The notes beneath the pieces are model-generated. The model ran no database searches, was not told the DNA's origin, and saw nothing but the letters and a program-made list of their open reading frames with translations. Source: Pycnococcus provasolii (lineage: Eukaryota > Chlorophyta > Pseudoscourfieldiophyceae > Pseudoscourfieldiales > Pycnococcaceae). Taken from it: a DNA stretch of 64,000 nt. Of this stretch, positions 4,518-61,318 are shown piece by piece. Location of the stretch: contig OW568873.1 of the NCBI GenBank assembly GCA_938743325.2, positions 62,001 to 126,000 of the forward strand, in the 5' to 3' direction. Position 1 is the first letter of the stretch, and each line of letters opens with the position of its first letter. The translations under genes and the position numbers were made by a program.

Positions 4518-4586
4518 GCGATGGGCGCTTTTCATTGGCGTCCGGCGTGTAAGGGCTCGTAAACAACAACAATGCTAGTAGGTAAC

Positions 4587-20169: not shown

Positions 20170-20743
20170 TGGCTATCTTCATGTTTCTTGTCATGATTCA
20201 TCACCAGGCGTACGACAGCGCGGCAATCACTGTGCTTGGCTTTGTGCATTGCACCAACAGGTATGTGCAGAGTTGCCCGCGCATGGCGTGCACAAGCCTC
20301 ATTGACCACATGAACCCACTCGCGGATGTGGCAATGGAGCCACATGTCGAGGCCTCCTGAGGCCTCCGGAGGCCGCGGTCCAAGAAGTAGACGCTTGTGT
20401 TTCAGAGGTGCTCCGCGCTTTACAAATCCGTCACGCGTGGAACGCGTTGACGGCCGAGCTCGATGACGAGCTTAAGCGCCGCGCCGGCATGCTCGTGACG
20501 TACAACATGTCACGAGATGTGATAATAGTATGCTCTTGCGTCGAGACGAGTCCTCAACACTACTCTGTCCTCAACCGACCTCGGGCCCGTCCGGGTCCGT
20601 CATCACTCATCAGGGGGTTGGGGATCCGTGATTGGTCAGGTCCCCGTATGGCCTGTTCCCTGGCGGCGCTTCCTCGTTCCCCATTTCCTCGCTCATTCGT
20701 CGTTGTCGTCGTCGTCGTCCGGCACCGTTCCCCACACGACACC
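20170..20743. other. Region upstream of RPC2
   Basis: Several open stretches in different frames (20170-20360 and 20408-20530) have protein-like composition but no single continuous gene, consistent with remnant coding sequence. GAGGCCTCCTGAGGCC and its extension (20348-20376) is self-complementary. A (GTC)n run sits at 20700-20718, about 30 bp before the RPC2 start. Confidence 0.35.
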
Positions 20744-39300: not shown

Positions 39301-39626
39301 ATGAGCCGACACTTTTTCGCCGACGACACGACGTGCATTTCCTTCGTTAGTTCTCCCTCCCCCCCCGGACCACCGGGAGTTTGCAGGCACACGACGAGCG
39401 TGTCCGTGAGTTCGTATCCGAACAGGAAGAGCTGGAGCGCGGCAGACTTGCGGTACATGAACTCCTCGGACGCGGGGCCGGCAATGACTGCGATGCAGAA
39501 TGATCCCCCTAAAGATCCCCCTGATAAAGACGGATCTGATTTCGATGATCCTGCAGCATAATCTGACAATGCCGAGTACAACGCCGACGAGCGTGCGGAG
39601 AATACCGAAGCGTCGATGGTTGCCAT
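36393..39626 (-). CDS. SPT16: FACT complex subunit SPT16
   Basis: 1,077 residues, normal family length, one exon. In order: N-terminal peptidase-like domain (residues ~1-440; GPASEEFMYRKSAALQLFLF, YNNYCTNISRTFLIDP), linker with an Ala run (encoded by GCC repeats near 38150) and RNVLIDNKLRD, dimerisation domain, middle domain with double-PH fold (QTPNVTGSP; RPNFGGRGRKLPGNLEAHAN; NGYRAFVKKI; HKSTSTVLPCLNCLVEL; FDMTIIFKDMTRPVVRID) and a highly acidic C-terminal tail (~985-1060) ending in a basic KKKSRKR. The peptidase-like domain is catalytically dead in the family. With SSRP1/POB3 it is the histone H2A-H2B chaperone for transcription and replication. Upstream lies a shared GGTTTGGGTTTTCGC-like motif with POLA2. 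Confidence 0.95.
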   Translation of the reverse strand: MATIDASVFSARSSALYSALSDYAAGSSKSDPSLSGGSLGGSFCIAVIAGPASEEFMYRKSAALQLFLFGYELTDTLVVCLQTPGGPGGEGELTKEMHVVSSAKKCRLIEPCIEKCLKDAGVTVILHTKEKGDDGKKHIDEVIARAKHVGLLAQFAHIAKEYTPPFEDSAPFLKAYDQAIKAASITPQDAANALATALAPKDESEILYVRKAAMLTTAALNKFVVKQLEDTIEEEKKIKHSKLSELAEDSIVHPTQVGVKLNEENVEICYQPIFQSGSSPAYDLRPSAQSDDKIMTYDTILVSLGARYNNYCTNISRTFLIDPDDGQQKAYQKLVDAHAAAAAALVEGAKLSDAYEAAKVALGDEYAAKLTKSVGYVMGLEFRESAYVINAKATAATVKAGMVFNVSVGLSDLVTKKGKKYAMQIADTVLVKPDGEAPQVLTDAATKRYSDIAYNLEGDDEDEEPAEKENAKSRDAKTKGKKEAAAAAAAAAPAGAADGPSRGRNVLIDNKLRDNVDGDVNMADVQDALTKRVNDETKDILDRMKGRAGSGSGASSSSASAAEPVSYKSISDIPAHVARDMTIAVDSRHESILLPIMGQVVPFHISMVKNITQHSEQDFSYIRIVFQTPNVTGSPVAGFPWAQKHPDLTYIREINYKCIDSRHATKVLSDVKMLKKTVMQKMTEQQDRASLVTQEKLKLTKERVYRLQDCWIRPNFGGRGRKLPGNLEAHANGFRYSTQKAEQVDIMYSNIKHAIFQPCEKDLITLIHFHLHNPIMIGKKKITDVQFYTEVVEGTVALDGGRRSMYDPDEIDEERKDRERKNRINNGYRAFVKKIQEMWEQKHAQLQLEWDVPFRELGFEGVPHKSTSTVLPCLNCLVELIEMPFFVLSLNEILLVNLERVGFSLKNFDMTIIFKDMTRPVVRIDAIPSERLEAIQQWLSKVEIKYYVSRMNLNWKPILTSIMDDPDKFFEEDGGWEFLNLEGSEGEEDDEEEESSFEPESSDDEESDDDDDDDDDDDEDDDDDDDSEEFDEDELDSDERGMDWSDLEEEAAAADKKKAREEDDDDRRPSKKKSRKR

Positions 39627-43700: not shown

Positions 43701-45126
43701 CGACGGTACTGTTAAGAATCTAATTGGATGCAAATGGGTTTTCAAAATCAAGCTGAATTCTGATGGATCGATCGCTCGATATAAAGCTAGACTAGTAGCA
43801 CAGGGTTTCTCGCAGATTCATGGCGTGGATTACAGCGAGACATACGCCCCGGTGGTTCAGTACCAAACATTACGAACGCTACTGGCGATCTATTCCGCAC
43901 GTGGCTTCTACTTCGGACAAATTGATGTGGAGACCGCATACCTTTACGCTTTGGTACAAGAACTAATCTACATGAGGCCGCCGAAAGGAACAAACTACGG
44001 GCCTAATAAGATCTGCAGATTGCTGAAGTCTCTCTATGGCCTTAAACAGGCTGGGAGAAACTGGTACCTAGATCTGAAGGATTACCTAGTCGAGCTTGGC
44101 TTTAAACCAGGGGAAGTTGACATTGGGATGTACTCAGCTGCTGTCGGAACGGAGAACGAAATTTGGATTTTGGTCTATGTGGATGACATCATCTTCGCAT
44201 CCAAGAACGAGCAGACGAAAGACATCTTCGCCGGACACCTCCGCAAGAAGTACAGAATTACCGAACCAGCACAACTGACATGGGCACTCGGAATGAAGGT
44301 ATCGTTCGCAGCAGATGGCATCATCCTCACTCAAGATCTTTACGTGAGTAAGATACTTGAAAGGTTTGGTTTCACATCGGCCGCAAAATCAGCGACAACT
44401 CCGTTGGCCCACGGAACGACACTTACGCGAGCAGACGAAGAAGACGCCGAGGCGCGTCACCTCGCCCAGCAGTTTGTGGGTGCAATCCTCTACGCGGCAG
44501 TCATCAGCAGGCCAGACCTGTCATCGACCGTACGAGCGATGTCACACATCATGTCTAAACCACCATCGAACTTCGAAGCTTGCAAGAAGCATGTACTGCG
44601 GTACCTTTCTGGAACAATCAACCGAGGAATAAAGTACAACACCAACTCGAACGTACCGCTCAAGCTCATCGGATACTGCGACGCAAGCTGGGGAGATAAC
44701 CACGAGAATCGCCGATCCACATCGGGATACATTTTCTTCTTGAATGGTGGGCCGATTTCATGGGCGTCTTACCTGCAGACGACCGTAGCCTTATCAACAG
44801 TTGAATCTGAAGTCATGGCACTTACGGAAGCTATCAAGGAGGCTATCTACATCCGTCGACTTCTGGAGTCACTTGGCGCAGCGCAAGAAGGTCCAACTAT
44901 CATTTACACGGATTCAACAGGAGCTGAAGCGCTCGTCGATCATCCGACGTCGCACAGGCGAACGAAACACATCGAGATCCGACGCGAGTTCATCAAGTAT
45001 CACATCGAACACGAGACGGTCAAAATCGAACGAGTGAGCACAAAGGATCAGCTCGCTGACATCATGACGAAGCCTCTGAGGCAAGACATCCACAATTACC
45101 TCGTGCAAATGATTCTGCACGGTTAA
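40753..45126 (+). CDS. Gag-Pol open frame of the copia-type element (fossil element part)
   Basis: 1,457 codons. Parts in order: Gag-like region with several RGG/GGR-rich arrays (~210-310) and a Cys/His segment, aspartic protease region, integrase (zinc-binding region, then catalytic core), reverse transcriptase with the YVDDIIF box (~1140), and RNase H at the C-terminal end. The order protease-integrase-RT-RNase H defines the copia type as opposed to gypsy. There is no separate gag frame, so Gag and Pol would be made as one chain, as in plant copia elements. Codon use is less GC-rich than neighbouring host genes. Confidence 0.9.
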   Translation: MPELDNSKPPLFVPSKRSYNDFVLAWRGHSRKRNYSQLLEWAENPDNAPEALTQQQQTWNSRFFSDLVDSLYNGETDDAATAALAAMDAAADDGMQLWTALKREIDITLPSARSHAEDQLKNKTKQKHDETVAEFGLRFRGAVREFKNRGGEMTNYKYAELFAANVHERHQRIALELVTDLDPDDDNAIIIPDIIRRTNERASLHDRIIRANPENRRRRLALLMQGRGGGRSGGRTGGRGGRNTERFDPQRHHRRCQNANCPAPHTHDTPMCYAPGGARHDPARWRGNTDAGRGGRGGRGGYQGGRGGRGGRHPLQYTPQPQHYTPQQHQNFQQLGGAYTTHPAYPVLATDASHHGIGGTQQYLPPPPPLPSQLMQHNIARVGEAFPTMNAPPPTGQMYQTGPYRRTYAITLATNEPNCSKYIVDNASPYTLTGSLSHLYDVQQLEKPKEIGGIKKDSTIKCTHVGKIDFTTHEGALTVTNAYYSAELSGFVSILSYIVMRDAGAVLVDKKTDPYILLPNSDIMFLKEMDSGHLYTELTSLTNVDEDYPTLPINAGQWHARLGHLHPRRIENFPSDAEQIPADAECPACQLHKSKRTRREPAQSVTEYKIGEVWSTDAIRPGTISVSGVTTFFPFIDYGSRFVFDYYAVSKEITEYMAILKQWVSDIHTVRNTVNPDINWPKQLRTDHEQLFMHPDCVAFLNYHGITAVPVPPYQHHKVGRVERRYGIIHQHALIMMETAQIYDRVWPAAYSFAVFHTNSAKQYPSAIVHGATTDSQGMYPSPNKMFLKRETDLNFTRIPFCVSYVYHEQHSKFQQRSNRGVFVGYSKDVPGSYVIWQPDENKTKLSAHVTCMEKLKEDGTLLHPAHIFYPELARTKVSKSACVFNIGTKIGPGGRRIAKTSVPHAPSTNLLEIGGEPDTHSQKTTHSALDYAFATDVSETPGFEPRTYEEAIHSKDHERWILAIDSELNSHQLNGTWIVIDNDGTVKNLIGCKWVFKIKLNSDGSIARYKARLVAQGFSQIHGVDYSETYAPVVQYQTLRTLLAIYSARGFYFGQIDVETAYLYALVQELIYMRPPKGTNYGPNKICRLLKSLYGLKQAGRNWYLDLKDYLVELGFKPGEVDIGMYSAAVGTENEIWILVYVDDIIFASKNEQTKDIFAGHLRKKYRITEPAQLTWALGMKVSFAADGIILTQDLYVSKILERFGFTSAAKSATTPLAHGTTLTRADEEDAEARHLAQQFVGAILYAAVISRPDLSSTVRAMSHIMSKPPSNFEACKKHVLRYLSGTINRGIKYNTNSNVPLKLIGYCDASWGDNHENRRSTSGYIFFLNGGPISWASYLQTTVALSTVESEVMALTEAIKEAIYIRRLLESLGAAQEGPTIIYTDSTGAEALVDHPTSHRRTKHIEIRREFIKYHIEHETVKIERVSTKDQLADIMTKPLRQDIHNYLVQMILHG

Positions 45127-46357: not shown

Positions 46358-49300
46358 ATGCCGGCGCCGCCCACGGAACGCCCGTCGCGCACGCCGGCCA
46401 GCACAGGTACAGCCATGGCCGCGCGTCTGCGACTACGCCACGAACAACAAGCGCAAGCGCTCACCACTGTACTGGACGTTGACGCAAACGCAGACGCAAA
46501 CGCAAACGCAGACGCAGACGACGACAGTAGTACGACAAATATCCCTACGGAGGAGGAGCACGACTCCGTCCACGCGTCTCCTCCTCCTCCTCCTCCTCCT
46601 CCTGCTCCGCAAGAGACGGTCGACGACGACTTGCACCTCCGTGACAGTGACGAAGCAGAAGGAGCACAACAATCGGAGGACGAGTTTCGTCAGGAACCAA
46701 AACAGCTTGACACGACACGGGAAGAAGAAAAACGCCATCCTCCTGAGCCTGAGCCTGAACCTGAACCTGGTCCTGAGACCGAGGCGAAGATCGAGCACGA
46801 AACAGTGACGCCGGCAGCCGTGGCCTTGGAGATTGTGCAGAACCAAGTGCAGGACGAAAAAGACGACAGTGACGGGGACAGCGCAGACGCACACACAGGC
46901 GGTCAGGAAGAACCCCCCACGCCGGTCGCTCGCCCGCTCGTCAAGACCACGAGTCTACAGAGCTACACGGAAAGTCGAATCGACGAAGATGGCGACGGAA
47001 TCGAAGCACTGGAAGAGGAGGAGGTTGTCGGAGCAGCCGAAGTCGTCGGCGGGAGGACGACATCTCTTGGAACACAGCCGCTCGACGACATTCCGCCAGT
47101 CACACCAAGGGAACCGCCGCCACCACCACCACCACCACCACCACCACCACCAAAGTCGCTGGAACCCGAGCGGAGTCGTAAACAGCAACCTCGCCGCCTT
47201 GAACCAGCACACATCTTGAACGCCGCTCGTGAAAAGCAGAGCCGCCTTGTCGCCACCTACAGCCGAATGGTGAGGGCGGTCGTGTGGCTTGCAATTTTTG
47301 GACTGTATCTCGCCTATCAGGTGGCTCTGTGGGATATTAGTGCGACGTTTCGAGTGAATGACGACATCGAGAGTGCCCTTTTCAAGGCGCTCGCGAGGCC
47401 GTCATCCCGCTTGAGTGGTGTGGTCGCTTGGGTGCAAGACGCCTTCGTAAAGCCAGCATGGCGCGATCCCGTGTGCGGCGACGGTGTTTGCGAGCAGCCG
47501 TATGAGGTAAGTGGCAAGTCAGGACCGAACGCGTGCCCAGTTGACTGCGGCTACGATCGTGAAGCTGTGAAGGCTGTTGCGCGCATCACTTCAGATTTCC
47601 AGCATCCGAAGATTGCACCAAGAGTACTCCAGCAGCCTGCACGCTGGAACCTGTGTAGGCGTGACGATGGACGCGCGCGCGCTGGTGGGTCAGACTTGTG
47701 CTACTTCGAAAACGATGTTGCATTCGACGAAACGAGGCGGGTGCAGGCGGTGAGCGTCGAGCTAGCGCAGGGGACATGGTACCTTAGTATCGATGGAGAC
47801 CCGGCGGCGCGTACATCAGGATTTGTCATGGATGCGAATGTGCTCGCGTCACGTGGCCTTGCATATGCATACGATGCCACGCGCAATCTCACAGCCACGG
47901 GAGAAGTGCAGCTTGCACTCAACGCGTCCACGTGGGGAAGTTGCGAAGCGCCTCGTCTCGCATCGCCTTCTGCGGATGACGGTCGCATCCAGGAGCCAAC
48001 TGCGGTCGTTAAGGGCCGTCGCCAACTCCTGCAGCAGAGTTTGAGGGAGAATACGCAGTGTGCCTTCAGCTGCCCGCCTGAGGAAGTTGCGACCAAGACG
48101 TGTCCGTGCAGTGTTTGCGAGACAGATCCAGCCTCAGCAGTGTGCGCCACTACAATCGAATTATATTGCGCAGCATACGATGGCGCAGGCTTTCCTACCC
48201 CACCATCGATGCCGCCACCGTCACCGCCACCGCCGCCGCCATCGCCGGCACCACCACCACCACCTCCGCCGCCGCCGCCGCCTCCACCGCCTCCTCCTCC
48301 TTCTCCTTCTCCTCCTCCGCCGCCGAGTCCGCCGCCGAGCCCGCCGCCGAGCCCGCCGCCGCCGCCAGACGCGCCCATAGCTACTAACGCGATCGCGACT
48401 GGGCAGATGCGCTGCGACGCCCGGTGCTCCGAGCTGTGCGAGATTGGGGCGAGACACTTTCCAGAGATACTACAAGGCGCACCGGCAGCATCGATTGGCG
48501 AGGGAGTGAAGTTCCCCTTTTTCTCTCCAAGTGTCCGTGATTATCCTGTTGCCATCCCAGAGTCGCTTGCCAGCATTGCGTACGATTGGCCCGCCATCAC
48601 GCTGTATGCCATCCCTAAGATGAACTCGTCGCACATGTTCGTGGAATGCGAAGAAAAGGGATGCGAACTGTCGAATCCTGGACCGCACCAAGAGATGTCG
48701 TACACGACGCTCATGTATCCGTCTTGTGGGCCGACAACGATGCGCGTGAAGGTGTGCTGCGACGCGGGATGTGCTGGCGAGAAATCCATTTACACCTTCA
48801 GGTTTACGGGACACAAGCCGGAATGCGCTCCACCTCCGTCACCGCCGCCACCGCCGCCGCCGCCGCCGCCACCATCACCTCCTCCTCCTCTTCCTCCTCC
48901 CCCTCCTTCACCGCCGCCATCGCCGCCACCACCGCTTCCTCCTTCACCGCCGCCATCGCCGCCGCCGTCGTCGCCGTCGCCGCCTCCTTCACCGCCGTCA
49001 TTGCCGCCACCGTCGCCGCCTCTTTTCCCGCCGCCATCGCCACCGCCATCTCCACCTCCTTCGCCGCCGCCATTGCCGCCACCCCCGCCAAGCCCACCTC
49101 CAAATCCATGTATCAGCATTGGAAATTGCTCGCCACCGCCGCCGTCGCCGCCGCCGCCGCCGCCGCCGCCGCCTCCTTCACCGCCGCCGTCGCCGCCACC
49201 GCCGCCGCCTCCTTCACCGCCACCATCGCCACCACCATCTCCTCCCCCACCTCCCCCACCTCCCCCACCGAGCCCTGCGCCTCCGCCAGTACCTCCATCT

Positions 49301-52300
49301 CCGTCGGGACCGCACTGGGTACAAATGGGTGGAGATATTGACGGCACAAGAGCCCAGGAGAACTTGGGCGCCTACGTATCACTGTCTGCAGATGGCGAGT
49401 GGCTTGTAGCTGGCCATGACGGCGGCACTGGCATTCAGTCTCTCGTGCGAATCTACTCCAGTTCCTTTGGCACGGCGGTGCGGCGATCTTCGACAACGTG
49501 GAAAAAGTGTGGCAAGGATCCCGTGCTTGATAATCAAGATATTGGCAGAACCGTCGTGCGGATGTCAGCGAATGGACAACGCATCGTGGTGGGTATTCCG
49601 ATGAGAAGTTCTTCTTCGGGTCTTAATGACCAGGTCGGAATTGTCCGCGTCTTTGAATTTAATGCCACCAATCCTTTGAATCCAGACTGCAGCTCGTCGT
49701 CGTGGATTCAGGTGGGATCGGCCATTCAGCCAGCGTCCATCACTGCGTACCAGCAATTCGGATATGCCGTGGGAATTTCACAAGATGGCAGTCGCATCGT
49801 CGTCGGTTCGCCTGGCGATGCCTCCACGGGACGCGTTACCGCGTACGATTACAATGGGACGAGCTGGAATCTCGCGGGTAGCGCGAATGACATGCTCGGT
49901 GAAGCTGCAAACGACGGCGCCGGCGAGTCTGTCGCCATCTCGCACGACGGCTCTCGCGTCGCGCTTGGAGCTCCCATTTGGGGTCCTTCCGCAGAAAGGC
50001 GTGGCAAGGTGTACCTGTACGAATATTCGTCTTCCGCGAGTACATGGCAAAAGCTGTATGAAGCGGAGGGCGCCGGTCGCTTTGGCGTGGGAGATTATGC
50101 AAGCGTGCAAGAGTTTGGAAGTGCCGTGGCACTGTCCGGCGATGGATACACACTTGCTGCCGCCAGCCCGTTTTCGGATCGGGCTGACGGTGAAGTGCAT
50201 GTCTACACTTGCGTCAAACCTTTGGGCTCAAGTAGGTGCGATCCCATAAGCGTCATCACAGGTCCAAACAGGAGCGGGCAACCTGGTCTAGCAAATGAAG
50301 GCATATCCCTTACATACGATGGTCGAACCATTGCTATCGGGTACCGCGTGACTGATTCCACAACTCTGGAAATGGCAGGAATCGCACGAACATTTTCATT
50401 GAGCAGTGACAACTCGACGTGGACCATGCATCCCAAGGACGAGTTGGCACAATTAAATGCATGGCCAAGAGGCGAGGGAGCGTACGACGAGTTCGGTGGA
50501 AGTGTTTCCATCAGCAGCAACGGGCTTCGTCTAGCCGTGGGAGCACCGAAAAACGATCCACAGCTTGGCAAGAGTGCGTATACCAATGCAGGACATGTGC
50601 GGGTTTTCGAGGTCGCCATGCTTGGACCCAGCCCACCGCCTTTGCCACCACCGCCGCCTTCGCCGCCGCCATCGCCACCTCCGCCGCCTAGCCCGCCGCC
50701 ATCTCCCTGCACTATGACGGGAAATTGCCCGCCGCCGCCGCCGCCACCGCCACCGCCACCACCGAGTCCCCCACCGCCGTCTCCTCCTCCGCCACCGCCG
50801 AGTCCCCTACCGCCGCCTCCGCCATCGCCACCGCCGAGTCCTCCACCGCCGTCTCCGCCACCACCACCGCCACCGCCGCCACCGCCACATCCCCCGCCAA
50901 GTCCTCCACCGCCGCCGTCGCCACCACCTCCCCCGCCTAGTCCCCCGCCTCCTCCTGCTCCTCCTCCACCACCTCCTCCTCCTTCCCCACCGCCGCCGCC
51001 AATGCAACCACCTTTGCCGCCTGCATCTTGGTCACCGCATGGAACAAACACTCTTGGCCTTACTGCAGCTTCCACAGATACCGATAAATTTGGAAAGAAG
51101 ATTTCACTAAAGGGAAGTTTTTTAGCGGTTGGAGCTCCGTTAAACGATAGGAATTGTGGAACAAGTTGTACGGATACTGATGCAGGACTCGTCAAGACAT
51201 ATATATATAACGGATACTCAGGGCAGTGGGCACAGTGGGGTCAAGATTTAGGCTATATTACCACGGGTACCTCAAGGAATGCAGGATGTCAAGCGGTGTC
51301 GTTGGGTTCTTCATATCTTGCAGTCGGATGCAGTCTAGCTGACGATCCTACCCTAGGCCTTACCGATTCTGGGGTGGTTTTAATATACGTTAGAAGTATG
51401 TGGAACGATTGGCAAAACTTGGCAGAGTTAAAGGGAACAACAAACAGTGAAAAGTTTGGTTCCGCAGTCGCCATGTCGGAAACTGGGAGGATCCTCGCCG
51501 TTGGTGCCATAGGTGCCAACTTGCATGGCGCATATACTGGTGCGGTGACAATATTTCACGGACCTACTACGCACGCGAGTACCTGGGTGCAGGTCGGTCC
51601 CACCATCCATGGTGTGGCTGGTGACAACTGGTTCGGGGCTGAAATAGGTCTCTCTCTTGATGGCAAACGTTTTGTATCCGGAGCATCCAGGAATACTAAT
51701 TCGAATGGGGCAAGAGCTGGCCATGTGCGTGTGTTCCAGCACGGCGGTACTCTCGATGCAGCTGGAACGTGGACTCAGCTTGGTGCAGACATAGAAGGTG
51801 TGGCAGCTGACGACCGTTTTGGAGCCTCGGTTTCACTTTCGTCAGATGGATATACTGTCGCTTCTTCGGCTCCGATGAATGACGGCTTTGCGAATAAAGC
51901 CGGCCATGTTCGTGTTTTTAAGTATAATTCTGCTTCCAATGCATGGAATCAAGAGGGGCAGGACATTGAGGGTACAATTAGAAGAGACAATTTTGGCGAA
52001 TCGGTATCTTTGTCTGGTGATGGCCGGCGCATCGCTGTTGGGGCGCATCAGGGTGACACAATTCCCTTTACGAGTGATGACTCTCGTGGTTATGTGCGGG
52101 TATTTGAGCTCATATGTACACCGATGTGTACGTGGACGATGGTTGGTCCGACCCTTTATGGCGATGATGAATTCGATGAATTTCACGTAGTGCAGTTGTC
52201 ATCGGACGGAACCCGCCTCGCAGTTGGAGCACCGAACGGAAAATGCACACTTTGTAATAACCGCAGGGGTTATGTGAAGGTGTTCGAACTTGGATATTTC

Positions 52301-55300
52301 CGTCGCCGGCGCCGCACTCTTCTGTCATCGGCTGTGGAGTCGCTGGGCACGTATCGGCATTTGCTGAATCAGCAGCGACTTTCCATCTACGATCCAGATC
52401 CCAAATGCACGACTGTCTGGAAATCACCACCTCCATCGTTATCGCCACCTTCAACTTCGCCACCAGCAGCACAAACGTTGACTCCGCCAAGCTGGGATTT
52501 ACCCCCTCCGAATCCGCCGCCAGCACCTCGAATTGTTGTGGCCATTTCCAACGAGACGCTACCTGCACCACCGCCCAATATATCACCCCCACCACCGCCT
52601 CCTGATTCCAGCATCCCCATCCTTAAGCTCATCGGACCTGTGGAGGTGGTTGTGCCACTCAATACTGACTATGTCGATAGTGGCGCGACATGTGTCGACA
52701 ACGTGGATGGCTCCATTGCTGTTCCCGAGCCTGATGGCCTGTCTGCAGTAAATACGGCATATGCTACGCTGCCGGATCGCCCATATATACTTACGTACGA
52801 ATGCATTGATCGGTCTCTCAACCGCATACAGTTGCAGCGGCGCGTGCACGTTTCCGACAGCCCGTGTGCAGCTGCATCGATTGCATCTGGTCGCCTTGAA
52901 GAGGTTTGCCCAAGTACCAATGATGTTGATGATGATGACACTCAACCAACATGCAGTATTTTTGGCGTATGTGTAGGTCTATCATTTGCAGTAGACCCTG
53001 ACGCTAAGAATGCCTCAATCCCTGCGGCATCAATTTTGGCTGACGCCATACCACCGCGAGTTTTGCTTATTGGGATGAAAGAGGGCTCGTTCATGGCTCG
53101 CACCACGGATGGCACTCTCGTTCTTCAAGAGGAGATTCTACAAGGTCAGGTGTACAGGGATCCTGGATACGTATGCTTGGATCAAACGGATGGCGACATT
53201 AGCGACAGGGTGAGCGTGTTCGGCGAATCTGCAGTGGACTCAAGAAATCCAACCATCGATCCGTTTGTGATTCGCTACACATGCAAAGATCTTGCAGGCG
53301 TTCGTGCTGAGGAGGTGCAGCGATGGATCACCGTAACCTCGCTTTGTGCTGGCGAGGCGACTTGCGACGATGGAAGCTGCCCTTTGGATGGTTATTGCGT
53401 TGTGAGCAAACCGACCACAGTTCAGCTTGTACACTTACCCACTGAGATTGTGAAAGACAAGCCACCGACCATCACACTGGTTGGAGACGAGAGACTCGAG
53501 ATTGAGGGAAGTGGATATGCCAAGTGCGTTGAGGGTCTTGCTGTGTCCGCGCGTTGCGATCGCGGGGTGAAGGCTTTTGATTCGACGGACGGTGATCTCA
53601 CGCCTTACGTCAGGGCATGTGATCGAAGCTTCCAGGATGAGGGCCTTGCCGGATGTGCAATTAGCGGCTCGGACTATCCAGGCGAGTACGAGATTGAGTT
53701 CAGCGTTACCGATAGTGCTGGTCAAAGGGCTCGTGTTGTGCGCAAAGTCGTGATTGTCGTGCAGTGTGAAGCAGGTAAAGTGCGATGCAGGGACGGTGTG
53801 ACGTGCGTTCCTGAGGGCATGCCTTGCGAAGCAGATATAGTTACTGAGATTGACGAGGCTGTGGAGTTCACTGCCCCGCCGATGCCGCCAAACGTCACCC
53901 TACTTGGTTCGTCGATTTTGAAAATACCCCGCTTCATCGAGTACACGTCATGCGCTTCCGGGCAGTTTTCGTCAGACCTCGTGCCATGTGATGAAGGAAG
54001 TCTTGCGCTTGGCGCGATGGGAGAGAGTCTTGCTGACTCACTTCTCGTTTGCCCTCCAGAGTCGTGTATGCCTTTTGGGTGTCCAGGGCACGAGCTATGG
54101 CGCAAGGGTGTCCACAGCTGTGTCAACACGTCGGCGCCGGTGGGCACGGCATTCAGCATCACGTTTGTCGCATTTAGTACGGAAGGTTTGCACGCGTCAA
54201 CGACACGCACCGTCATGATCGATGAGCCATGTCCGGAAGGACAGCACTGGTGTCCGGCAAACTCACCCGCGGGACGGTGTGAGAATGCCGCTTGCAGTGT
54301 AGTCGAGCTTCTGGCTGACGACAGCAGTCTCCCGCCTTCCCTGCGATTTGACGACACAAGCTCTTTCGCCGGGCCAGTCGTCGAATGGAGAACGCCGCCA
54401 CGAGACGAAATGCCCTTCGGTTTTGTGTACGGGCAAACGCCCTGGAACCCGTCGGACATTTGTGGTAGTGCGGCAAGCCCCGTTGCCCCATGCACGGGAG
54501 CATTGGTGAATGAATACTTTCCACAGTGTGCCGCAATGGCTCGGGACAGTTCCGATGCAGAAAAAGTGACCTCCACGCTTCTAGTTAACAATCCTAGAGA
54601 TGAGTGCGCACCAGGTGTTCTCGCATCAGGACTCTGTGAGCCAGGTGTGTATCGCTTTTTCTTCTCGGCTGTCGATAATGAAGGTAATGTTGGAGAGGGT
54701 GACACTGCGATTGAGATTGAGGTGTTGCAGGGATGGCAGGAGATGTATCGGATGTACACGAGGGGAAACTGCAGTCTCCTGCTCGATCCACGAACGCCAG
54801 ACAGTTCTCGCGTTCGATCCAGCGTGTCTTCGTTGCTTGCCTTGCCGACGGGGCGGGTGCGCATTCACAAGTGCGAGCAAGACCCAGCGCTCGGACGCCG
54901 CATGGACGGACTTGCGGCTCATTTGCAGGTGGTTGTTGTTCGTGCATACAGCGACGGCGGCCCGCTCCGACCGGAGCAGTACGGTGCGAGTCGACGGAGC
55001 GGTAGCAATCGACATCCATATGCCGAAGGCATTGACACGGACGTCCTGCTCGATTTTGCGTTTCACCTTGCCGAGGTGGAGAGTGCGGATCCAAATGGCT
55101 TGTGGGCGCAGAGTGCGCGTGTGAAGGCGGTATCGATCACAGCCGACGAATTTTCGAACCAAATGATGGTTGCAACGAATATGACTCTGGAGATGATTGA
55201 CGGCACAGCAGACGGCGACAGCGCAACTGGTAGCTTGAGCGCCGTTGCTGGAACCTTAGCCACATTCTTTGACGAGGGCGTGGACGTGTCACGTACGGGG

Positions 55301-58300
55301 CATGGTGGGATCTCAGCATCGGCGACTGAAGCTTTCGATCTGCTCGCACAAACACAAGCAGTAACTGAGAATGCAACATTTGTGGCGTCATCAATCGCAA
55401 GCAATACCTATCAGGTGCAGACTCGTGGCGACCAGTTGCAGGCGACGCTTCAAGCAGCATTCACCGCCGTATCTGAGACGAGCGGAATTGCCCCAAACAC
55501 TCCGACGGAGTGCCGCGGTGCGAATGGCGCACGGCATGTGTACTACAGTATTGGCGATTCGGTTCCTCGGCTACAGAATCAAGGAGATGAGCCTTCCATA
55601 AACAGTGCAACGAATAGTACTGATAAAGCGCGCCGGCAATTGCACTCCACCGTGGCAAGGCGACTTCTGCGCGCAAAGTCGTCATCGCGCAGTGGCGTAG
55701 TTGCGCGTGAGTCGCTGAAAGCAGGAAACATGCCAGATGAAAGTTTTGCTGGATACATGCAGTCAGAGCTTTCTACTGACGACCTTCGGCTTGTGAATCA
55801 CTCAGGATACAATCGACCGCGCACGCTTGGCGCGGTGCCTCGTTTACGAGTCGTGGGTGGAGTTCTCATTACGCAGACTCGTGCATCTCGTGACGCGGGA
55901 TGCCGCGGCCGACAGGCGTCAAATATGGTTGGGCAAAAATCCAGTGTGCAATGGCGCTTTCAGGAGCTCTTTCCGGATGCAGTTTGTTCTAGCGAGGCGA
56001 CAGCGGCGTTCGGATATGACCCATTCTACACACGCCTTGACATGCCATATGATGTGGCCGGTCTCTCCAGCCGTTATCCCAGCGGTCTCTACGACCCCGC
56101 TTTGCGGACCATGCGAAGCGCCTTTTACAACACATCCGAGCTTGCAGCACCGGACATCCCCTACGCATTTTTTAGCCGAGGCTACGATGGTTGCGTGGGA
56201 AAGTCATCTTGCGAAGATTTCTTGGATGTTGACCTGGAAAGTGCACTTTTCGACGTTTACCTCGACGGAACGTTAATGGAAGATCGTGCGCATCGTCTTC
56301 TCTCGTACCTCTATCTGGCTCGCTTCGTCGATCGCCAAACTACTTCTGTCAACATCCGCGTGCTCCTTCACAACGAGCAGGCACAGGTGCTCGTTGACGT
56401 GCGTGTTCGAATGGATGTGAATTCGCACGGTGAGATTAGCGCGACAACCGCTGCTTGGCCAATTCCGTTAACAGACTTCCTCGACGGCTCCGTGGCGAAT
56501 TCGCTGCTTTTCACCGCGGAGATTGTTATCCTTGTCATAGCAATTGTCCTGTGCATCAATTCGGCGCGCAGTGCGCGCAAGTTTGCCTCATTATTCTACG
56601 ACTCCGTCGTTCTACGACTTCGCCAGCACATCGTGAGGAGACGCTTCGTGGTTGACATGTGGATTCTCATCGTGGAGGGGCTTAAAATTTCCATTCCTCT
56701 ATTCTTGCTGGCAGGCAGTTGCGTGCAGTTGTCCTACTATTTTACCTACGTGCAGGGCTTCACGTATGAGCCGAGCTATCGCTGGTACGATGGAGATGGA
56801 TCAGCCACGGCGCGTCCTCTGCTCCTGAAGCGCGATGCACCACCTCAGCCTCCAATCGAAGGCTATCCGCGCGGTGCATTTCGGCACACTCTACCGTCGG
56901 ATACATCTGAGCGTGATCAGTACTTGCAGCTCCTTGAGAAATGCGACAAAATGATTTTACTCAATGGAGTATACCTCGGACTACAGACGCCCATCTTTCT
57001 TGGAATCGCTGCTAATGTCGCTCGGCTACTCATGAGAATTCCTGGCGTGTACACATTTTTGCACACAACAAAGCGTGCTCTACCGGAAATGGGGCTACTT
57101 GTCGCATTGATGATGATGTTCACGACGCTGTGCGCATACGCTCTTCACCTCTTGATTGGTGACCAATTCGAACCGTACGCTCGTGCAAAAAATGCCATCG
57201 CGGCTCTAGCAGAATATCAGATTGGAGATACCTCAGGCTTGGTATATCGAAATGTAATGGGCGTGGACAGGGGTCGGCTCATGAGTGCTTCCGAAATTGC
57301 CGGCGTCGCAATGGTGCGAATCTTCTTTCCGATCGCGACTGCATTCCTGCTGATGCAATTCATAGTAGCGGTCCTTCTGGATTACTTTTCTGATGAGATT
57401 TCTCGTCGATCAGCAAATGCGCGCTTTGCCAAGCAGAATGAAACGGTGCACGAGCGAGTTGCAATGCGCGCGATGACTACGAATGGCATTCTTGACAGCT
57501 TGCGGGATCACGCAAGTGCTTTGTTTTACTCCATTGGCTGGAAGAACACGTCCGCGTACTTGTTTTCGAGAAATTCGCGATGGCTTCATCCAGGCAGGGG
57601 GTTGCGAGCTTTTGCCACGAATGCAGGTTTGACGTATGCTGCCGAATCTTCCGACGTCATGTTGGCGGAGGAGCCGAGCACACCTCACGCACGCGCGCGT
57701 GCCATGGAGATACTTGAATCAATCGTATCGAATGCCGGCGGTGATTCTGAAGGCGTTGCCAATGAAGCACATGCGATAGCCGCCAGCTCGATGACGGCAG
57801 GGAACATACGACGCGAGGGGCTGCAAAGCGACGCGGCTCGTTACTTGCGCATGAATGTCCTCAATCGCCGCCAGGAACTCGTTGTGCCAATTCTTGGCCT
57901 AATTGGGCCCGTGGCGCTCGGTGAGCTGTTGGGTAGACTTCACGAGTTTAGGTCGACCGCAACAAGGAGCTTCAGCGATATCCTGTACGACTTCACGAGT
58001 AGGGAGAACAGAGCACGCCTTGCGCGCAGCAGGGTGCAGCAGGCAGTTGGAGATGAAATCGATCGCGATGCGTGCTCGAGACTTGCCGAGCGCATTACGC
58101 ACGACCTCGGCTGGCGTCCTGGCACAGAGTTCGATCGGTCGTTCGGCAGAGCACTTGCCATGGCAGTACTCAAGCGCGCGCGCGACACCGCGAAGGGCAT
58201 GTATGCGGTGAGCGCGGATATGATCGTTTTGTCGTTGACGTTCGAAGAAACGGTGGTTCAGTTGCGAACTTCTGGGCTCACGCCGCGCGGTGTCGGTGGT

Positions 58301-58549
58301 CTGGCGTTGCTTAAGCGCCAGCTATCGAATACAGCCACGCGCCCTTGGAAGGTGGTGAAGACAGCGTGGAGGTCTCTCTTTATTGGCAAATCTGGCGTTG
58401 ACAAAAAGGGGCAAGATGCACTTGAGACGCTGAGGCAGAACCCTCAATGGTCGGTGATGGACCTCTCCGTAGCGCGCGCTCAGAAGAAGAGGAGGAGAGC
58501 AACGAAGCATCAGATGATGCGCGACGTGGTGAAAATGGGAGGCACTTGA
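46358..58549 (+). CDS. Giant polycystin (PKD2-like) channel with Ser-Pro-rich and FG-GAP ectodomain, Mstax-like
   Basis: 4,063 residues, one uninterrupted frame from ATG 46358. Cytosolic acidic N-terminus (1-300, with a Pro10-type run), then S1 helix (~304-328, VVWLAIFGLYLAYQVALW). The S1-S2 loop is enormous: a Cys motif CGDGVCEQPYEV (~370), Ser-Pro/poly-Pro block 1 (~615-675), block 2 (~825-985), FG-GAP-like repeats (~988-1423), Pro block 3 (~1424-1558), more FG-GAP-like repeats (~1559-1980), Ig-like HYR/DUF5011-type modules (~2085-2640; FDSTDGDLTPYV, TCVDNVDGSI), an unassigned region, and a polycystin (TOP) domain (~3158-3372; GAVPRLRVVGGV, ARFVDRQTTSVNIRVLLHNE). Then S2 (~3383), S3 (~3440), S4 (~3532), S5 (~3578), a pore loop with IGD at 3622-3624 (PKD2 has LGD) and S6 (~3650-3680), and a ~380-residue cytosolic tail. 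Pro-Ser blocks would be hydroxylated and glycosylated outside the cell. Layout matches the PKD2-like mastigoneme axial protein of Chlamydomonas, but FG-GAP and Ig-like modules make it distinct. Confidence 0.88.
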   Translation: MPAPPTERPSRTPASTGTAMAARLRLRHEQQAQALTTVLDVDANADANANADADDDSSTTNIPTEEEHDSVHASPPPPPPPPAPQETVDDDLHLRDSDEAEGAQQSEDEFRQEPKQLDTTREEEKRHPPEPEPEPEPGPETEAKIEHETVTPAAVALEIVQNQVQDEKDDSDGDSADAHTGGQEEPPTPVARPLVKTTSLQSYTESRIDEDGDGIEALEEEEVVGAAEVVGGRTTSLGTQPLDDIPPVTPREPPPPPPPPPPPPPKSLEPERSRKQQPRRLEPAHILNAAREKQSRLVATYSRMVRAVVWLAIFGLYLAYQVALWDISATFRVNDDIESALFKALARPSSRLSGVVAWVQDAFVKPAWRDPVCGDGVCEQPYEVSGKSGPNACPVDCGYDREAVKAVARITSDFQHPKIAPRVLQQPARWNLCRRDDGRARAGGSDLCYFENDVAFDETRRVQAVSVELAQGTWYLSIDGDPAARTSGFVMDANVLASRGLAYAYDATRNLTATGEVQLALNASTWGSCEAPRLASPSADDGRIQEPTAVVKGRRQLLQQSLRENTQCAFSCPPEEVATKTCPCSVCETDPASAVCATTIELYCAAYDGAGFPTPPSMPPPSPPPPPPSPAPPPPPPPPPPPPPPPPPSPSPPPPPSPPPSPPPSPPPPPDAPIATNAIATGQMRCDARCSELCEIGARHFPEILQGAPAASIGEGVKFPFFSPSVRDYPVAIPESLASIAYDWPAITLYAIPKMNSSHMFVECEEKGCELSNPGPHQEMSYTTLMYPSCGPTTMRVKVCCDAGCAGEKSIYTFRFTGHKPECAPPPSPPPPPPPPPPPSPPPPLPPPPPSPPPSPPPPLPPSPPPSPPPSSPSPPPSPPSLPPPSPPLFPPPSPPPSPPPSPPPLPPPPPSPPPNPCISIGNCSPPPPSPPPPPPPPPPSPPPSPPPPPPPSPPPSPPPSPPPPPPPPPPSPAPPPVPPSPSGPHWVQMGGDIDGTRAQENLGAYVSLSADGEWLVAGHDGGTGIQSLVRIYSSSFGTAVRRSSTTWKKCGKDPVLDNQDIGRTVVRMSANGQRIVVGIPMRSSSSGLNDQVGIVRVFEFNATNPLNPDCSSSSWIQVGSAIQPASITAYQQFGYAVGISQDGSRIVVGSPGDASTGRVTAYDYNGTSWNLAGSANDMLGEAANDGAGESVAISHDGSRVALGAPIWGPSAERRGKVYLYEYSSSASTWQKLYEAEGAGRFGVGDYASVQEFGSAVALSGDGYTLAAASPFSDRADGEVHVYTCVKPLGSSRCDPISVITGPNRSGQPGLANEGISLTYDGRTIAIGYRVTDSTTLEMAGIARTFSLSSDNSTWTMHPKDELAQLNAWPRGEGAYDEFGGSVSISSNGLRLAVGAPKNDPQLGKSAYTNAGHVRVFEVAMLGPSPPPLPPPPPSPPPSPPPPPSPPPSPCTMTGNCPPPPPPPPPPPPSPPPPSPPPPPPSPLPPPPPSPPPSPPPPSPPPPPPPPPPPHPPPSPPPPPSPPPPPPSPPPPPAPPPPPPPPSPPPPPMQPPLPPASWSPHGTNTLGLTAASTDTDKFGKKISLKGSFLAVGAPLNDRNCGTSCTDTDAGLVKTYIYNGYSGQWAQWGQDLGYITTGTSRNAGCQAVSLGSSYLAVGCSLADDPTLGLTDSGVVLIYVRSMWNDWQNLAELKGTTNSEKFGSAVAMSETGRILAVGAIGANLHGAYTGAVTIFHGPTTHASTWVQVGPTIHGVAGDNWFGAEIGLSLDGKRFVSGASRNTNSNGARAGHVRVFQHGGTLDAAGTWTQLGADIEGVAADDRFGASVSLSSDGYTVASSAPMNDGFANKAGHVRVFKYNSASNAWNQEGQDIEGTIRRDNFGESVSLSGDGRRIAVGAHQGDTIPFTSDDSRGYVRVFELICTPMCTWTMVGPTLYGDDEFDEFHVVQLSSDGTRLAVGAPNGKCTLCNNRRGYVKVFELGYFRRRRRTLLSSAVESLGTYRHLLNQQRLSIYDPDPKCTTVWKSPPPSLSPPSTSPPAAQTLTPPSWDLPPPNPPPAPRIVVAISNETLPAPPPNISPPPPPPDSSIPILKLIGPVEVVVPLNTDYVDSGATCVDNVDGSIAVPEPDGLSAVNTAYATLPDRPYILTYECIDRSLNRIQLQRRVHVSDSPCAAASIASGRLEEVCPSTNDVDDDDTQPTCSIFGVCVGLSFAVDPDAKNASIPAASILADAIPPRVLLIGMKEGSFMARTTDGTLVLQEEILQGQVYRDPGYVCLDQTDGDISDRVSVFGESAVDSRNPTIDPFVIRYTCKDLAGVRAEEVQRWITVTSLCAGEATCDDGSCPLDGYCVVSKPTTVQLVHLPTEIVKDKPPTITLVGDERLEIEGSGYAKCVEGLAVSARCDRGVKAFDSTDGDLTPYVRACDRSFQDEGLAGCAISGSDYPGEYEIEFSVTDSAGQRARVVRKVVIVVQCEAGKVRCRDGVTCVPEGMPCEADIVTEIDEAVEFTAPPMPPNVTLLGSSILKIPRFIEYTSCASGQFSSDLVPCDEGSLALGAMGESLADSLLVCPPESCMPFGCPGHELWRKGVHSCVNTSAPVGTAFSITFVAFSTEGLHASTTRTVMIDEPCPEGQHWCPANSPAGRCENAACSVVELLADDSSLPPSLRFDDTSSFAGPVVEWRTPPRDEMPFGFVYGQTPWNPSDICGSAASPVAPCTGALVNEYFPQCAAMARDSSDAEKVTSTLLVNNPRDECAPGVLASGLCEPGVYRFFFSAVDNEGNVGEGDTAIEIEVLQGWQEMYRMYTRGNCSLLLDPRTPDSSRVRSSVSSLLALPTGRVRIHKCEQDPALGRRMDGLAAHLQVVVVRAYSDGGPLRPEQYGASRRSGSNRHPYAEGIDTDVLLDFAFHLAEVESADPNGLWAQSARVKAVSITADEFSNQMMVATNMTLEMIDGTADGDSATGSLSAVAGTLATFFDEGVDVSRTGHGGISASATEAFDLLAQTQAVTENATFVASSIASNTYQVQTRGDQLQATLQAAFTAVSETSGIAPNTPTECRGANGARHVYYSIGDSVPRLQNQGDEPSINSATNSTDKARRQLHSTVARRLLRAKSSSRSGVVARESLKAGNMPDESFAGYMQSELSTDDLRLVNHSGYNRPRTLGAVPRLRVVGGVLITQTRASRDAGCRGRQASNMVGQKSSVQWRFQELFPDAVCSSEATAAFGYDPFYTRLDMPYDVAGLSSRYPSGLYDPALRTMRSAFYNTSELAAPDIPYAFFSRGYDGCVGKSSCEDFLDVDLESALFDVYLDGTLMEDRAHRLLSYLYLARFVDRQTTSVNIRVLLHNEQAQVLVDVRVRMDVNSHGEISATTAAWPIPLTDFLDGSVANSLLFTAEIVILVIAIVLCINSARSARKFASLFYDSVVLRLRQHIVRRRFVVDMWILIVEGLKISIPLFLLAGSCVQLSYYFTYVQGFTYEPSYRWYDGDGSATARPLLLKRDAPPQPPIEGYPRGAFRHTLPSDTSERDQYLQLLEKCDKMILLNGVYLGLQTPIFLGIAANVARLLMRIPGVYTFLHTTKRALPEMGLLVALMMMFTTLCAYALHLLIGDQFEPYARAKNAIAALAEYQIGDTSGLVYRNVMGVDRGRLMSASEIAGVAMVRIFFPIATAFLLMQFIVAVLLDYFSDEISRRSANARFAKQNETVHERVAMRAMTTNGILDSLRDHASALFYSIGWKNTSAYLFSRNSRWLHPGRGLRAFATNAGLTYAAESSDVMLAEEPSTPHARARAMEILESIVSNAGGDSEGVANEAHAIAASSMTAGNIRREGLQSDAARYLRMNVLNRRQELVVPILGLIGPVALGELLGRLHEFRSTATRSFSDILYDFTSRENRARLARSRVQQAVGDEIDRDACSRLAERITHDLGWRPGTEFDRSFGRALAMAVLKRARDTAKGMYAVSADMIVLSLTFEETVVQLRTSGLTPRGVGGLALLKRQLSNTATRPWKVVKTAWRSLFIGKSGVDKKGQDALETLRQNPQWSVMDLSVARAQKKRRRATKHQMMRDVVKMGGT

Positions 58550-59347
58550 GTGAGGTGGCAGGAAGAGAAGCAGAACAATGGCCCAAATGGAAGAAGCTTT
58601 TTTCTAATCAAGCTTTTTGTTTTTGTTTAAAAAAATCGCACGCTGCCATAGTTCGCTTTACATGAAGGTCAGGTCCACTTCCGTGCCCGGTTTGTACAGT
58701 AGTTCCTGATTGTGACTTTGGTGATTGTGATTTGTGATTTAGGTTGTCGTCGAAGACAGACGAAGACGAAGACGCGGGGGTCCCGGCCCCGGTCGGTGGT
58801 TCTTGCGCTGACCGCTGACGACGGTAAGGCTGTGCCATCCTTCGCTCCTATTTCCTTCGTAGTACTTAGTTTAGTAAACAACAAAGAAAGATCATAACAA
58901 ACAGAAAGGCGCAGATAGAGACACGTTTCACGGTTTCAGCTTGAAACGGACCTGGACATCTTCTTACAGGTTAAAAAAAAGGGTAAACAAAACGTAGTCT
59001 ACAATACAGTAAGCGAGCACAAGAAGAGCTCTTCTAAGCATAACTAGGGTAGGGTACAGTATTCCCATTCGCTGGGGCCCTAAACTTAATACCATCCCGG
59101 ACGGTAACCCCGGACGCGAAGAAGCCAATCATTTATTTGGGAGGAATCCGAAACCCGAACCAAAAAATTGGAATCCCAAAACTGTTCTTTGGGGATCCGT
59201 TCTTGGATTAAATCCAGATCGGTTTGGGTTTTCGCGCGCACCGCACCCCCCTTTCCCATTTGGAGTTCCGCCTCCCCCTCTCCTCTGCTTGTTCTCCCCC
59301 CCCCCCCCCCCCCCTTAATTGTTTTCAAATCCGAACCCACGTCCCCC
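58550..59347 (+). promoter_or_regulatory. POLA2 upstream region with E2F-like site and poly-C run
   Basis: 798 bp between the giant channel and POLA2, same strand. GGTTTGGGTTTTCGC at 59221-59235 continues into TTTTCGCGCGC (59229-59239), which contains the E2F/DP consensus TTTCGCGC 109-119 bp before the ATG, apt for an S-phase gene. A run of 19 C lies at 59296-59314. The first part (58550-59100) shows nothing recognisable beyond an A-run at 58971-58979. Confidence 0.5.
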
Positions 59348-61318
59348 ATGGCCATGATGTCGACGACGGTCGACGCCGTGCGCGTTGTGTTCACATCGCG
59401 CGACTACTCCATCACGTCGCCTCTGCTCGCGTCCAAGCTGCTCTCGCTCTGCGTCAACTACTCCCTCTCCCCCTCCTTACTCGTCGACGAATACGAATCG
59501 CTCGCAATCACGTCCGCGTGGGATACCGCACTCACAGACGCTCGCATTGACGCGCTCGCGGCACAACTCATGAGAATGCAAGCCAAGAGAACCTTGCCGA
59601 AAACGCCTGTCGCAGCAGCCTTGAAGAATAAAAACGCATTCGGCGCGTCATCAGCAATCAAAGGCGCTTCCGCCGTCGCGATCGCAATCGACGCCGAACT
59701 GCCCAACACGCCCGCAGCGTACGGCGCGAAGAAAACTGCCGCCTCTGTCGCGCAGCTCACGCCCATGACGCCGACGGACGCCATCAAACTCATCGACCAG
59801 GACAGGAAAAGCTCAGGGCAGCAGTCCGCCTTCAAAACACGAACGGAGCCGGGAAAGGAACTCGCGACGTATGGAAACAACGACGCAGGCAGTGTCTCCA
59901 AAGCGCCCGTCGTGCTTGTCGTGGACGCAAACGAAAAGAAAGCGAAGGAGAGCAGCGCGCGGTACATGTACGAAAAAGTCGAAGATCGCGCGAACGCCAT
60001 CGACACGCGCATCAGGCGATTCGCAGAGCGTGTCAAGGAACGACTTGTGCCCGATGAAGGGGAAGAGGGTGCGCGCGTCAAGCTCGACCCCGTCGGCGCC
60101 GCGAGACAAACGCTCGTTCGCGTCGTCGGGCGCATATGCATCGACGCCGAGGGTGCCAACGGCGGACGACTCAACGAAAACAGCCTCATGCTCGAGGGTG
60201 ACGTTAAGACCAGCTCAGGTGCGCGCGTCAAGCTCGACGTCAGCAGCCTCGACAAAATCAGCCTCTTCCCTGGACAGGTGGTGTACGTCGAAGGATTCAA
60301 CCTGAGCGGATTCACGCTCGTCGCCACCAGGCTCGTCTCATGCGTCGAAAGCATGGCGCTGCCATCCACCGGCGACGAGGCGGTCAAAATGGACAGCGAC
60401 GGTGCCGACGGCGATGCCACCGCCAACGACGACAAGCCACGCTGCCCCGGAGGAGCGCGCATCGCCGTCGCCAGCGGGCCATTCACGTGCACGTGTGACT
60501 CTTCGTACGAACCGCTCGAGGAGCTGCTCGCTCAGTTCGATGGACAGAGCAACGAGGTGGATGCTCTCGTTCTCGTCGGCCCGTTTGTCGACGCGGAGCA
60601 CCCGAGCGTCGCAGGGAATACGCTGCCAATCACCTTCGAAGAGCTGTTTGCAGCCAAACCCAGGGCAATGATCGAGGCGTTTACAGAGAAAAACGCGCAG
60701 ACGACTGTCATCGTGATCCCTTCGGTGCGCGACGTCTGCGAGCCGTTCGTCTTCCCCCAGCCGCCCATGGAGGAGGGTAAGGTGGAAGGCGCAGTCGCGG
60801 CGCCCAATCCGGCGACGCTTGACGTGGAAGGACTTCGCATCGCCGTTAGCAGCGTGGATGCCATGAAGCACCTTGCGGGAGCGGAGCTTGGCCGCGGCTA
60901 CGGAGCTGGCGCAGACCGACTGGCAAGGCTGGCAGCTCACTGCATTTCGCAGCGACTCGCGTATCCCATTTTCCCGTCACCGCGAATGGCAGGACTACCA
61001 CTCGACGTGGCGATGGCAGAAGAGAAAGCTCAGATTTCAGGCGACGTCGATGTGCTGCTAATGCCATCCGACATCGCGCCGCTTGCCAAGGCTGTTGACG
61101 CGTCGGCACTGCTGCCCGTCGCGGTGGCTGGGGATGCGAAGGCAGAGACTGAGGCGAGTGTGGGTGGCATCGTGCCAAGCGCAAATTCGAGTGTTCTTGC
61201 CGTGAATCCAGGCCGTACGGCACGTGGCACAGGCGGTGGTTCGTACGCGCGAATCATGGTCAGCGCAGGCGAAACACCCGTTCGGGAGCGTTTGACTGTG
61301 CGCATCATTCGCGTGTAA
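59348..61318 (+). CDS. POLA2: DNA polymerase alpha subunit B (primase-polymerase accessory subunit)
   Basis: 656 residues from MAMMSTTVDAVRVVF (human 598). The N-terminal part (1-90) is the helical bundle; a linker with KTPVAAAL and TPMTPTDAIK (CDK-site-like TP motifs) follows. The OB-fold part (~250-345) includes VRVVGRICIDAEG, SLFPGQVVYVEGFN. The inactive phosphoesterase domain starts at ~367 (RIAVASGPFTCTCD), with ALVLVGPFVDAEHPSV, TVIVIPSVRDVCEPFVFPQPP and ISGDVDVLLMPSDIAPLAKA. It tethers primase to the catalytic subunit at replication origins. The frame extends 60 codons upstream but without homology and across a poly-C run. Single exon; convergent with the coiled-coil gene. Confidence 0.93.
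   Translation: MAMMSTTVDAVRVVFTSRDYSITSPLLASKLLSLCVNYSLSPSLLVDEYESLAITSAWDTALTDARIDALAAQLMRMQAKRTLPKTPVAAALKNKNAFGASSAIKGASAVAIAIDAELPNTPAAYGAKKTAASVAQLTPMTPTDAIKLIDQDRKSSGQQSAFKTRTEPGKELATYGNNDAGSVSKAPVVLVVDANEKKAKESSARYMYEKVEDRANAIDTRIRRFAERVKERLVPDEGEEGARVKLDPVGAARQTLVRVVGRICIDAEGANGGRLNENSLMLEGDVKTSSGARVKLDVSSLDKISLFPGQVVYVEGFNLSGFTLVATRLVSCVESMALPSTGDEAVKMDSDGADGDATANDDKPRCPGGARIAVASGPFTCTCDSSYEPLEELLAQFDGQSNEVDALVLVGPFVDAEHPSVAGNTLPITFEELFAAKPRAMIEAFTEKNAQTTVIVIPSVRDVCEPFVFPQPPMEEGKVEGAVAAPNPATLDVEGLRIAVSSVDAMKHLAGAELGRGYGAGADRLARLAAHCISQRLAYPIFPSPRMAGLPLDVAMAEEKAQISGDVDVLLMPSDIAPLAKAVDASALLPVAVAGDAKAETEASVGGIVPSANSSVLAVNPGRTARGTGGGSYARIMVSAGETPVRERLTVRIIRV

Follow-up and report, generated by a model that had tools for sequence, protein, structure and literature searches.

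A giant polycystin-type gene of Pycnococcus provasolii with S1 and an MST3-like ectodomain in a single chain

Introduction

The closest solved sequence to the gene considered here, a giant polycystin-like open frame in a 64,000-nucleotide stretch of the Pycnococcus provasolii genome (hereafter the window), is MST3 of Chlamydomonas, a protein of 8572 residues that contains 42 P13/P11 repeats, five C-type lectin domains and, at its C-terminus, an intracellular part of 1600 residues (PMC11015965). MST3 has seven relatives in C. reinhardtii (PMC11015965). MST3 lacks S1, two helices of the TOP domain and one Ig-like domain, the region that is encoded by SIP, which provides S1 in trans (PMC11015965). 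SIP (Small Interactor of PKD2) has 361 residues in Chlamydomonas, with a 30-residue stretch 80% identical to PKD2, and has been reported in further green algae, including Trebouxia and Micromonas (PMC10846610). Dai et al. proposed that a PKD2-like gene was fragmented into MST3 and SIP, and that a flip of the N-terminus then permitted large ectodomains (PMC11015965). Mammalian PKD1 also joins a polycystin core to an ectodomain of very large size, with Ig-like and lectin modules among its parts, and C-type lectin domains are present in both MST3 and PKD1 (PMC11015965).

The window covers positions 62001-126000 of contig C13, in a genome of 46 contigs (32.3 Mb) that was searched as a whole. The gene occupies window positions 46358..58549 on the forward strand, as do all of its features given below, in a single open frame of 4063 residues (434 kDa). 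An earlier, sequence-only reading had seen in it a polycystin channel with a giant ectodomain in the loop between S1 and the TOP domain; this observation was confirmed, since one frame spans the whole and both of its ends match algal PKD2 by profile. We consider it probable that the gene encodes an unsplit, giant polycystin (TRPP-type) subunit with six helices that belongs to the MST3 line.

Results

The profile of 19 S1 segments from the giants (this protein and its paralogs) matched a profile of 14 PKD2 proteins at residues 50-256 of Chlamydomonas PKD2 (CrPKD2; hhalign, E 1.1e-32), and the profile of 18 giant channel segments matched the PKD2 profile at CrPKD2 residues 949-1419 (E 1.2e-29). 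The gap between the two matched parts is about 690 residues in CrPKD2, compared with 1624-5636 residues in the giants. Because the S1 and channel parts match PKD2 but lie far apart, the giants are PKD2-type chains in which the S1-TOP loop has been filled. The S1 and SIP/PKD2-type segment of the window protein comprises residues 292-500 (47231..47857), and its consensus, W..DPVCGDGVCE..C..DCG...WN.C...G.WYL...GD, is formed by columns that were invariant in alignments of 19 and 22 rows. The S1 helix itself (residues 304-328; 47267..47341) is evident from hydropathy and aligns with the homologous S1 of PKD2, in keeping with its earlier assignment as a membrane helix. The acidic, proline-rich tail ahead of it (residues 1-300; 46358..47257) is presumed, from PKD2 topology, to lie on the cytosolic side.

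Profiles and the fold model, compared with VIA-align 2, located the C-terminal part of the TOP (polycystin) domain at residues 3147-3378 (55796..56491) and S2-S6 with the pore at residues 3379-3693 (56492..57436). Hydropathy, the S1 profile and the fold model together give six helices, S1-S6, with the TOP domain between S1 and S2. Profile and fold thus agree on the polycystin C-terminus that the sequence-only reading had put forward as a test, with a model confidence that was modest for the C-terminus and low in the TOP part. Curated Pfam listed neither PKD_channel nor Polycystin_dom for the whole protein at E<=1, and the S1-segment profile had no match in the PDB at E<=1. The putative channel is predicted to conduct cations. 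Its selectivity filter carries IGD (residues 3622-3624; 57221..57229), in contrast to LLG(E/N) in CrPKD2 and in two short PKD2-type genes of the same genome, C1 (L049) and C23 (L050), both of which have an S1 segment and a channel. Residues 40-1300 of the C23 protein match green-algal PKD2s, including C. reinhardtii CHLRE_17g715300 (1.2e-188), which we take to be CrPKD2. Green-algal PKD2 shares with the window protein the S1 and CGDG segment, a long S1-TOP loop, the TOP domain and S2-S6, but PKD2-type proteins are far shorter (1467 residues in C23 to 1644 in CrPKD2, against 4063), and the Ig array of the window protein is absent from C1, C23 and C38 (L051), a third, divergent gene of PKD2 size in this genome.

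Searches of the genome with three segments of the window protein identified at least 23 giant loci that pair S1-segment, Ig-array and channel matches (family counts are lower bounds), and the order S1 segment, Ig array, channel was the same in 23/23. Both ends lie in one frame, judged by the same open-frame length being reported for both, at 18 of the 23 loci, with reported frames of 3023-6984 residues. The ratio of nonsynonymous to synonymous substitution rates (dN/dS) in the channel segment was 0.125-0.338 in six pairs, with dS saturated at 2.45 in the pair of the window gene and C9, and the channel part is under purifying selection. A chance open frame was rejected because of the 23 paralogous loci and these dN/dS values. 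We also rejected a frame made up only of low-complexity repeats, as the listed repeats are confined to proline-rich stretches; the S1, propeller, Ig and channel parts align like ordinary sequence.

For the channel and the Ig/Cys array alike, the closest solved sequence was MST3 (Cre06.g309951; PDB 9b4h chain X). The giant channel profile matched MST3 (9b4h_X) at 5.9e-27, compared with 1.6e-8 for PKD2L1, and a four-row profile of the Ig array had no PDB match at E<=10 other than MST3 4439-5103 (E 2e-41). This match is made up of two collinear stretches, one at 1.4e-24 and one at 4.1e-17, with Cys motifs in common. Homology of the array rests on this profile, whose rows are free of any Ser/Pro block; single-sequence queries of the PDB found MST3 at 9.1e-29 when started from residue 2005, and nothing at E<=1 when started from residue 2085. 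The homologous, collinear array of the window protein spans residues 2090-2700 (52625..54457). The S3-S4 loop holds a motif, PRGxxRHTLPxD, that appears as PRGAFRHTLPSD in the window protein (residues 3504-3515; 56867..56902) and as PRGGDYRWLLPDD in MST3. This pattern, drawn up after the giants and MST3 had both been seen, occurs in 15/20 giants, with variants in three more and C4a and C14b unmatched, and was found in 0/18 PKD2-type rows and 0/4 other polycystin rows. In a maximum-likelihood tree of the channel, the giants formed one clade (95/91), MST3 grouped with them (91/84), and the PKD2-type rows grouped with C38 (63/37); without five long rows, the support for MST3 with the giants was 99/96, in a run for which the program warned of long branches.

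MST3 and the window protein have in common polyproline rods, an Ig-like array, the TOP domain with S2-S6 and the S3-S4 loop motif. Unlike MST3, the window protein carries S1 and the SIP-like part in its own chain, has FG-GAP propellers that MST3 does not share, and ends in a tail of about 370 residues rather than the 1600 described for MST3. Pfam listed no C-type lectin domains in the window protein. In one paralog (L040, C26:135912-139874), we observed a sub-threshold C-type lectin match 500 residues past the S1 segment (21.3 bits, cut-off 22.6). The proposed relationship to Mstax/MST3, with a domain composition of its own, was therefore sustained by channel and Ig array alike, and the label "HYR-like" was not, as Pfam gives Bact_surface_Ig-like instead. 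We found no paper that uses the name "Mstax" with mastigoneme in literature that omits most subscription papers.

The loop insert contains three Ser-Pro(n) blocks, at residues 608-679 (48179..48394), 817-990 (48806..49327) and 1417-1562 (50606..51043). With 67-71% proline they have a feature of the hydroxyproline-rich-glycoprotein type, and they may be hydroxylated and O-glycosylated. FG-GAP block A (residues 985-1418; 49310..50611) is a beta-propeller by both Pfam and fold model, and block B (residues 1563-1985; 51044..52312), recognized by Pfam and motif positions, is a candidate propeller by analogy with block A; the comparison with beta-propellers that the sequence-only reading had called for thus rests on fold for the first block. 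A phmmer search of the PDB with block A gave no match at E<=0.1. Other Pfam matches, among them an EML propeller, AnfO, Phage_T3_1_05 and New_glue, we took to be weak or to reflect low complexity. In 18/20 giants a stretch with a Ser/Pro content of 0.8 or more per 40 residues comes after the S1 segment, and in 0/20 does one come before the channel. The distance from Ig array to channel is 397-449 residues in 17/23 giants and 480-1032 in 6/23, and the length from S1 to Ig array ranges from 594 to 4535 residues; a near-constant proximal span and a variable distal part would agree with interchangeable tips on a fixed stalk. FG-GAP is present in at least 8/23 giants, from a scan that scored 150 of 195 candidates and does not establish universality, and the strongest matches are in frames without a channel. 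Dense FG-GAP_2 arrays were seen in frames of 545-1121 residues at C31:172344-175037, C36:251525-263868, C11:147119-148330 and C1:1273454-1274674, and the channel search gave no match at these four loci.

The C-terminal tail of the window protein (residues 3694-4063; 57437..58546) contains a hydrophobic stretch, LVVPILGLIGPVALGELLG (residues 3841-3859; 57878-57934), within its presumed cytosolic part, which may be a re-entrant or amphipathic segment or else form a seventh helix. A 24th Ig-array locus (C29:156422-160294) has a weak S1-segment match and gave no match in the channel search; it may have diverged or been truncated, or encode a secreted form. A 1457-residue Copia-type frame (window 40753-45126, forward strand; RVT_2, 1e-59) lies upstream of the giant gene. 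Housekeeping neighbors in the window are the RNA polymerase second-largest subunit (20408-24340, forward), SPT16 (36393-39626, reverse) and DNA polymerase alpha subunit B (59168-61318, forward).

Discussion

Several observations weigh against an unsplit subunit of the MST3 line. Approximately unbiased (AU) tests did not reject a grouping of MST3 with PKD2, either with all rows (p 0.263) or without the five long ones (p 0.169); the rows nearest to MST3 by path in the channel tree are PKD2-type; and giants and MST3 differ in FG-GAP and lectin content (PMC11015965). These results would suit convergence, in which the giants of the Pycnococcaceae arose when cell-wall modules were inserted independently into a PKD2 loop, and their likeness to MST3 came from similar recruitment. 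However, an Ig/Cys array that is collinear with that of MST3 and has no second PDB match, together with the common S3-S4 motif and the support values in both trees, speaks against convergence, which we consider improbable; the grouping of MST3 with the giants is favored, not proven. Two deposited protein models also end or start inside the chain: Pycnococcus protein P0006 (334 residues) is the C4a S1 segment alone, identical over 333 residues, and Pseudoscourfieldia marina protein P0002, 99.25% identical to paralog C9 over 1472 residues, begins at the FG-GAP block with everything upstream missing. Such models could indicate that each locus yields one SIP-like protein with S1 and a second, MST3-like protein without it, through splicing, separate promoters or early termination. 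Yet one frame runs across both ends at most of the loci, which would not be expected of separate genes; both ends sit in one PKD2 chain too, and we give the two-product alternative little credence. Finally, the report of SIP from Micromonas makes the timing of events less simple (PMC10846610).

The unsplit chain of the MST3 line bears on how S1 and ectodomain came to be separated in Chlamydomonas. SIP covers S1 and part of the TOP domain, and its counterpart here is the S1 segment of the same chain rather than a separate gene. Two six-frame searches of the genome, one with the S1 segment of the window protein and one with P0015, found no homolog that would be a free-standing SIP gene. P0015, a SIP-sized EukProt protein of 362 residues used in place of Chlamydomonas SIP (A8JFQ9), matched 26 loci, and 26/26 carry a channel. 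P0015 is identical to CrPKD2 at 25/30 positions in the CGDG stretch and is probably SIP. In the S1-segment tree, the giants fell on one side (100/100) and P0015 among the PKD2s; therefore, if P0015 is SIP, then SIP represents the N-terminus of a PKD2 rather than an S1 shed by a giant. SIP has been reported from Micromonas, another prasinophyte, so its lack as a free gene in this genome could reflect loss instead of the original state. An MST3 homolog with both an ectodomain and an S1/SIP-like segment in cis nevertheless argues for ectodomain first and split later. The earlier suggestion of an ancestral form can accordingly be kept for topology, in that S1 in cis, as in PKD2, is likely, though not proven, to be ancestral; as to descent, the trees favor MST3 with the giants without proving it. 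A fuller scenario, which we offer tentatively, is that the giants are the surviving unsplit mastigoneme anchor. First, the S1-TOP loop of a PKD2-like channel would have taken up the ectodomain; in other green algae S1 would have been lost, with SIP, a duplicated PKD2 N-terminus, compensating in trans; and in Pycnococcus a protease would break the chain at RRxL, the 23 or more genes showing exchangeable rods and propellers wired to channels.

Candidate sites for such a break lie near both ends of the insert. In the window protein a dibasic motif, RRQLLQQ (residues 554-560; 48017..48037), follows the S1 segment, and a second, RRQLHSTVARRLL (residues 3092-3104; 55631..55669), lies ahead of the TOP domain. 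The pattern [RKH]RxL occurs 215-370 residues past the start of the S1-segment match in 17/20 giants, against a mean of 0.69 and a maximum of 4 in 500 shuffles, and in the 150 residues that precede the channel match in 13/20 (shuffles, mean 2.2, maximum 7), the motif having been spotted before counting, so that the shuffle controls were not blind. Proteolysis at RRxL could remake a two-piece arrangement in the giants. A looser RRxL-like pattern, counted without a shuffle control, is present in the S1-TOP loops of 15/17 PKD2 proteins (the loop end was unlocated in 5), and lends weak backing to the cleavage idea. Fragments of 140 kDa (N-terminal) and 90 kDa (C-terminal) have been reported for Chlamydomonas PKD2, with the mechanism of loop cleavage called currently unknown (PMC10846610). 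CrPKD2 has RRLL at 764, and a cut after residue 765 gives calculated masses of 85 and 98 kDa before glycosylation, a rough fit to the C-terminal fragment; the N-terminal fragment would fit only if its apparent mass were raised, as by glycosylation. RRLL764 may thus be the CrPKD2 cleavage site. We found no literature on "RRLL" cleavage in Chlamydomonas, within the same limits of search. RRxL is a testable candidate site for loop cleavage in Chlamydomonas PKD2.

Our best reading of function is a rod or fiber, tethered to the membrane and joined rigidly to TOP in a polycystin tetramer, with the pore acted on by tension or binding. The chain would begin in the cytosol, cross the membrane once at S1, and form the first part of TOP from the segment that Chlamydomonas encodes as SIP. 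It would then extend outward through Ser/Pro rods, one or two beta-propellers and the Ig/Cys stalk, before coming back to complete TOP and S2-S6. The subunit could assemble into a hetero- or homotetramer, for which the PKD2-type proteins C1 and C23 are likely partners. A glycosylated fiber or adhesion rod held rigidly on TOP could pass a pull or binding event at its tip to the pore, and cleavage at RRxL may release the N-terminal end of the rod, as a post-translational equivalent of the two-gene arrangement of Chlamydomonas. The same architecture is compatible with a different role, in which the giants would serve a coccoid cell as a repertoire for adhesion, recognition or cell-wall reception, with a fixed proximal stalk and differing distal tips, rather than as a ciliary hair anchor. 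Consistent with such a repertoire are the number of paralogs, the wide range of S1-to-Ig lengths, the propeller repeats of some giants, the lectin-like match in C26 and the description of P. provasolii as coccoid (PMC11130579). On the other hand, genes for IFT46 and IFT57 are present in the genome, hence cilia are likely made at some stage and a flagellate stage is plausible despite that description, and PKD2-type genes have been retained. We regard the adhesion repertoire as a serious possibility, while not leaning toward it.

The ectodomain of the window protein is a loop insertion, in contrast to that of mammalian PKD1, which has five extra helices ahead of the core (PMC11015965). By eye, four more polycystins of this genome (L001/L007, C9:544121-547749; L003, C15:132559-135786; L004, C1:1164099-1167320; L005/L008, C16:571932-575483) appear to consist of an ectodomain, an extra hydrophobic helix, S1, TOP and S2-S6, which looks like a PKD1-like route to an outside N-terminus. 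The giants would represent a further route for hanging a giant ectodomain on a polycystin, and S1 in cis in an MST3 homolog makes the order of events testable through green-algal sampling.
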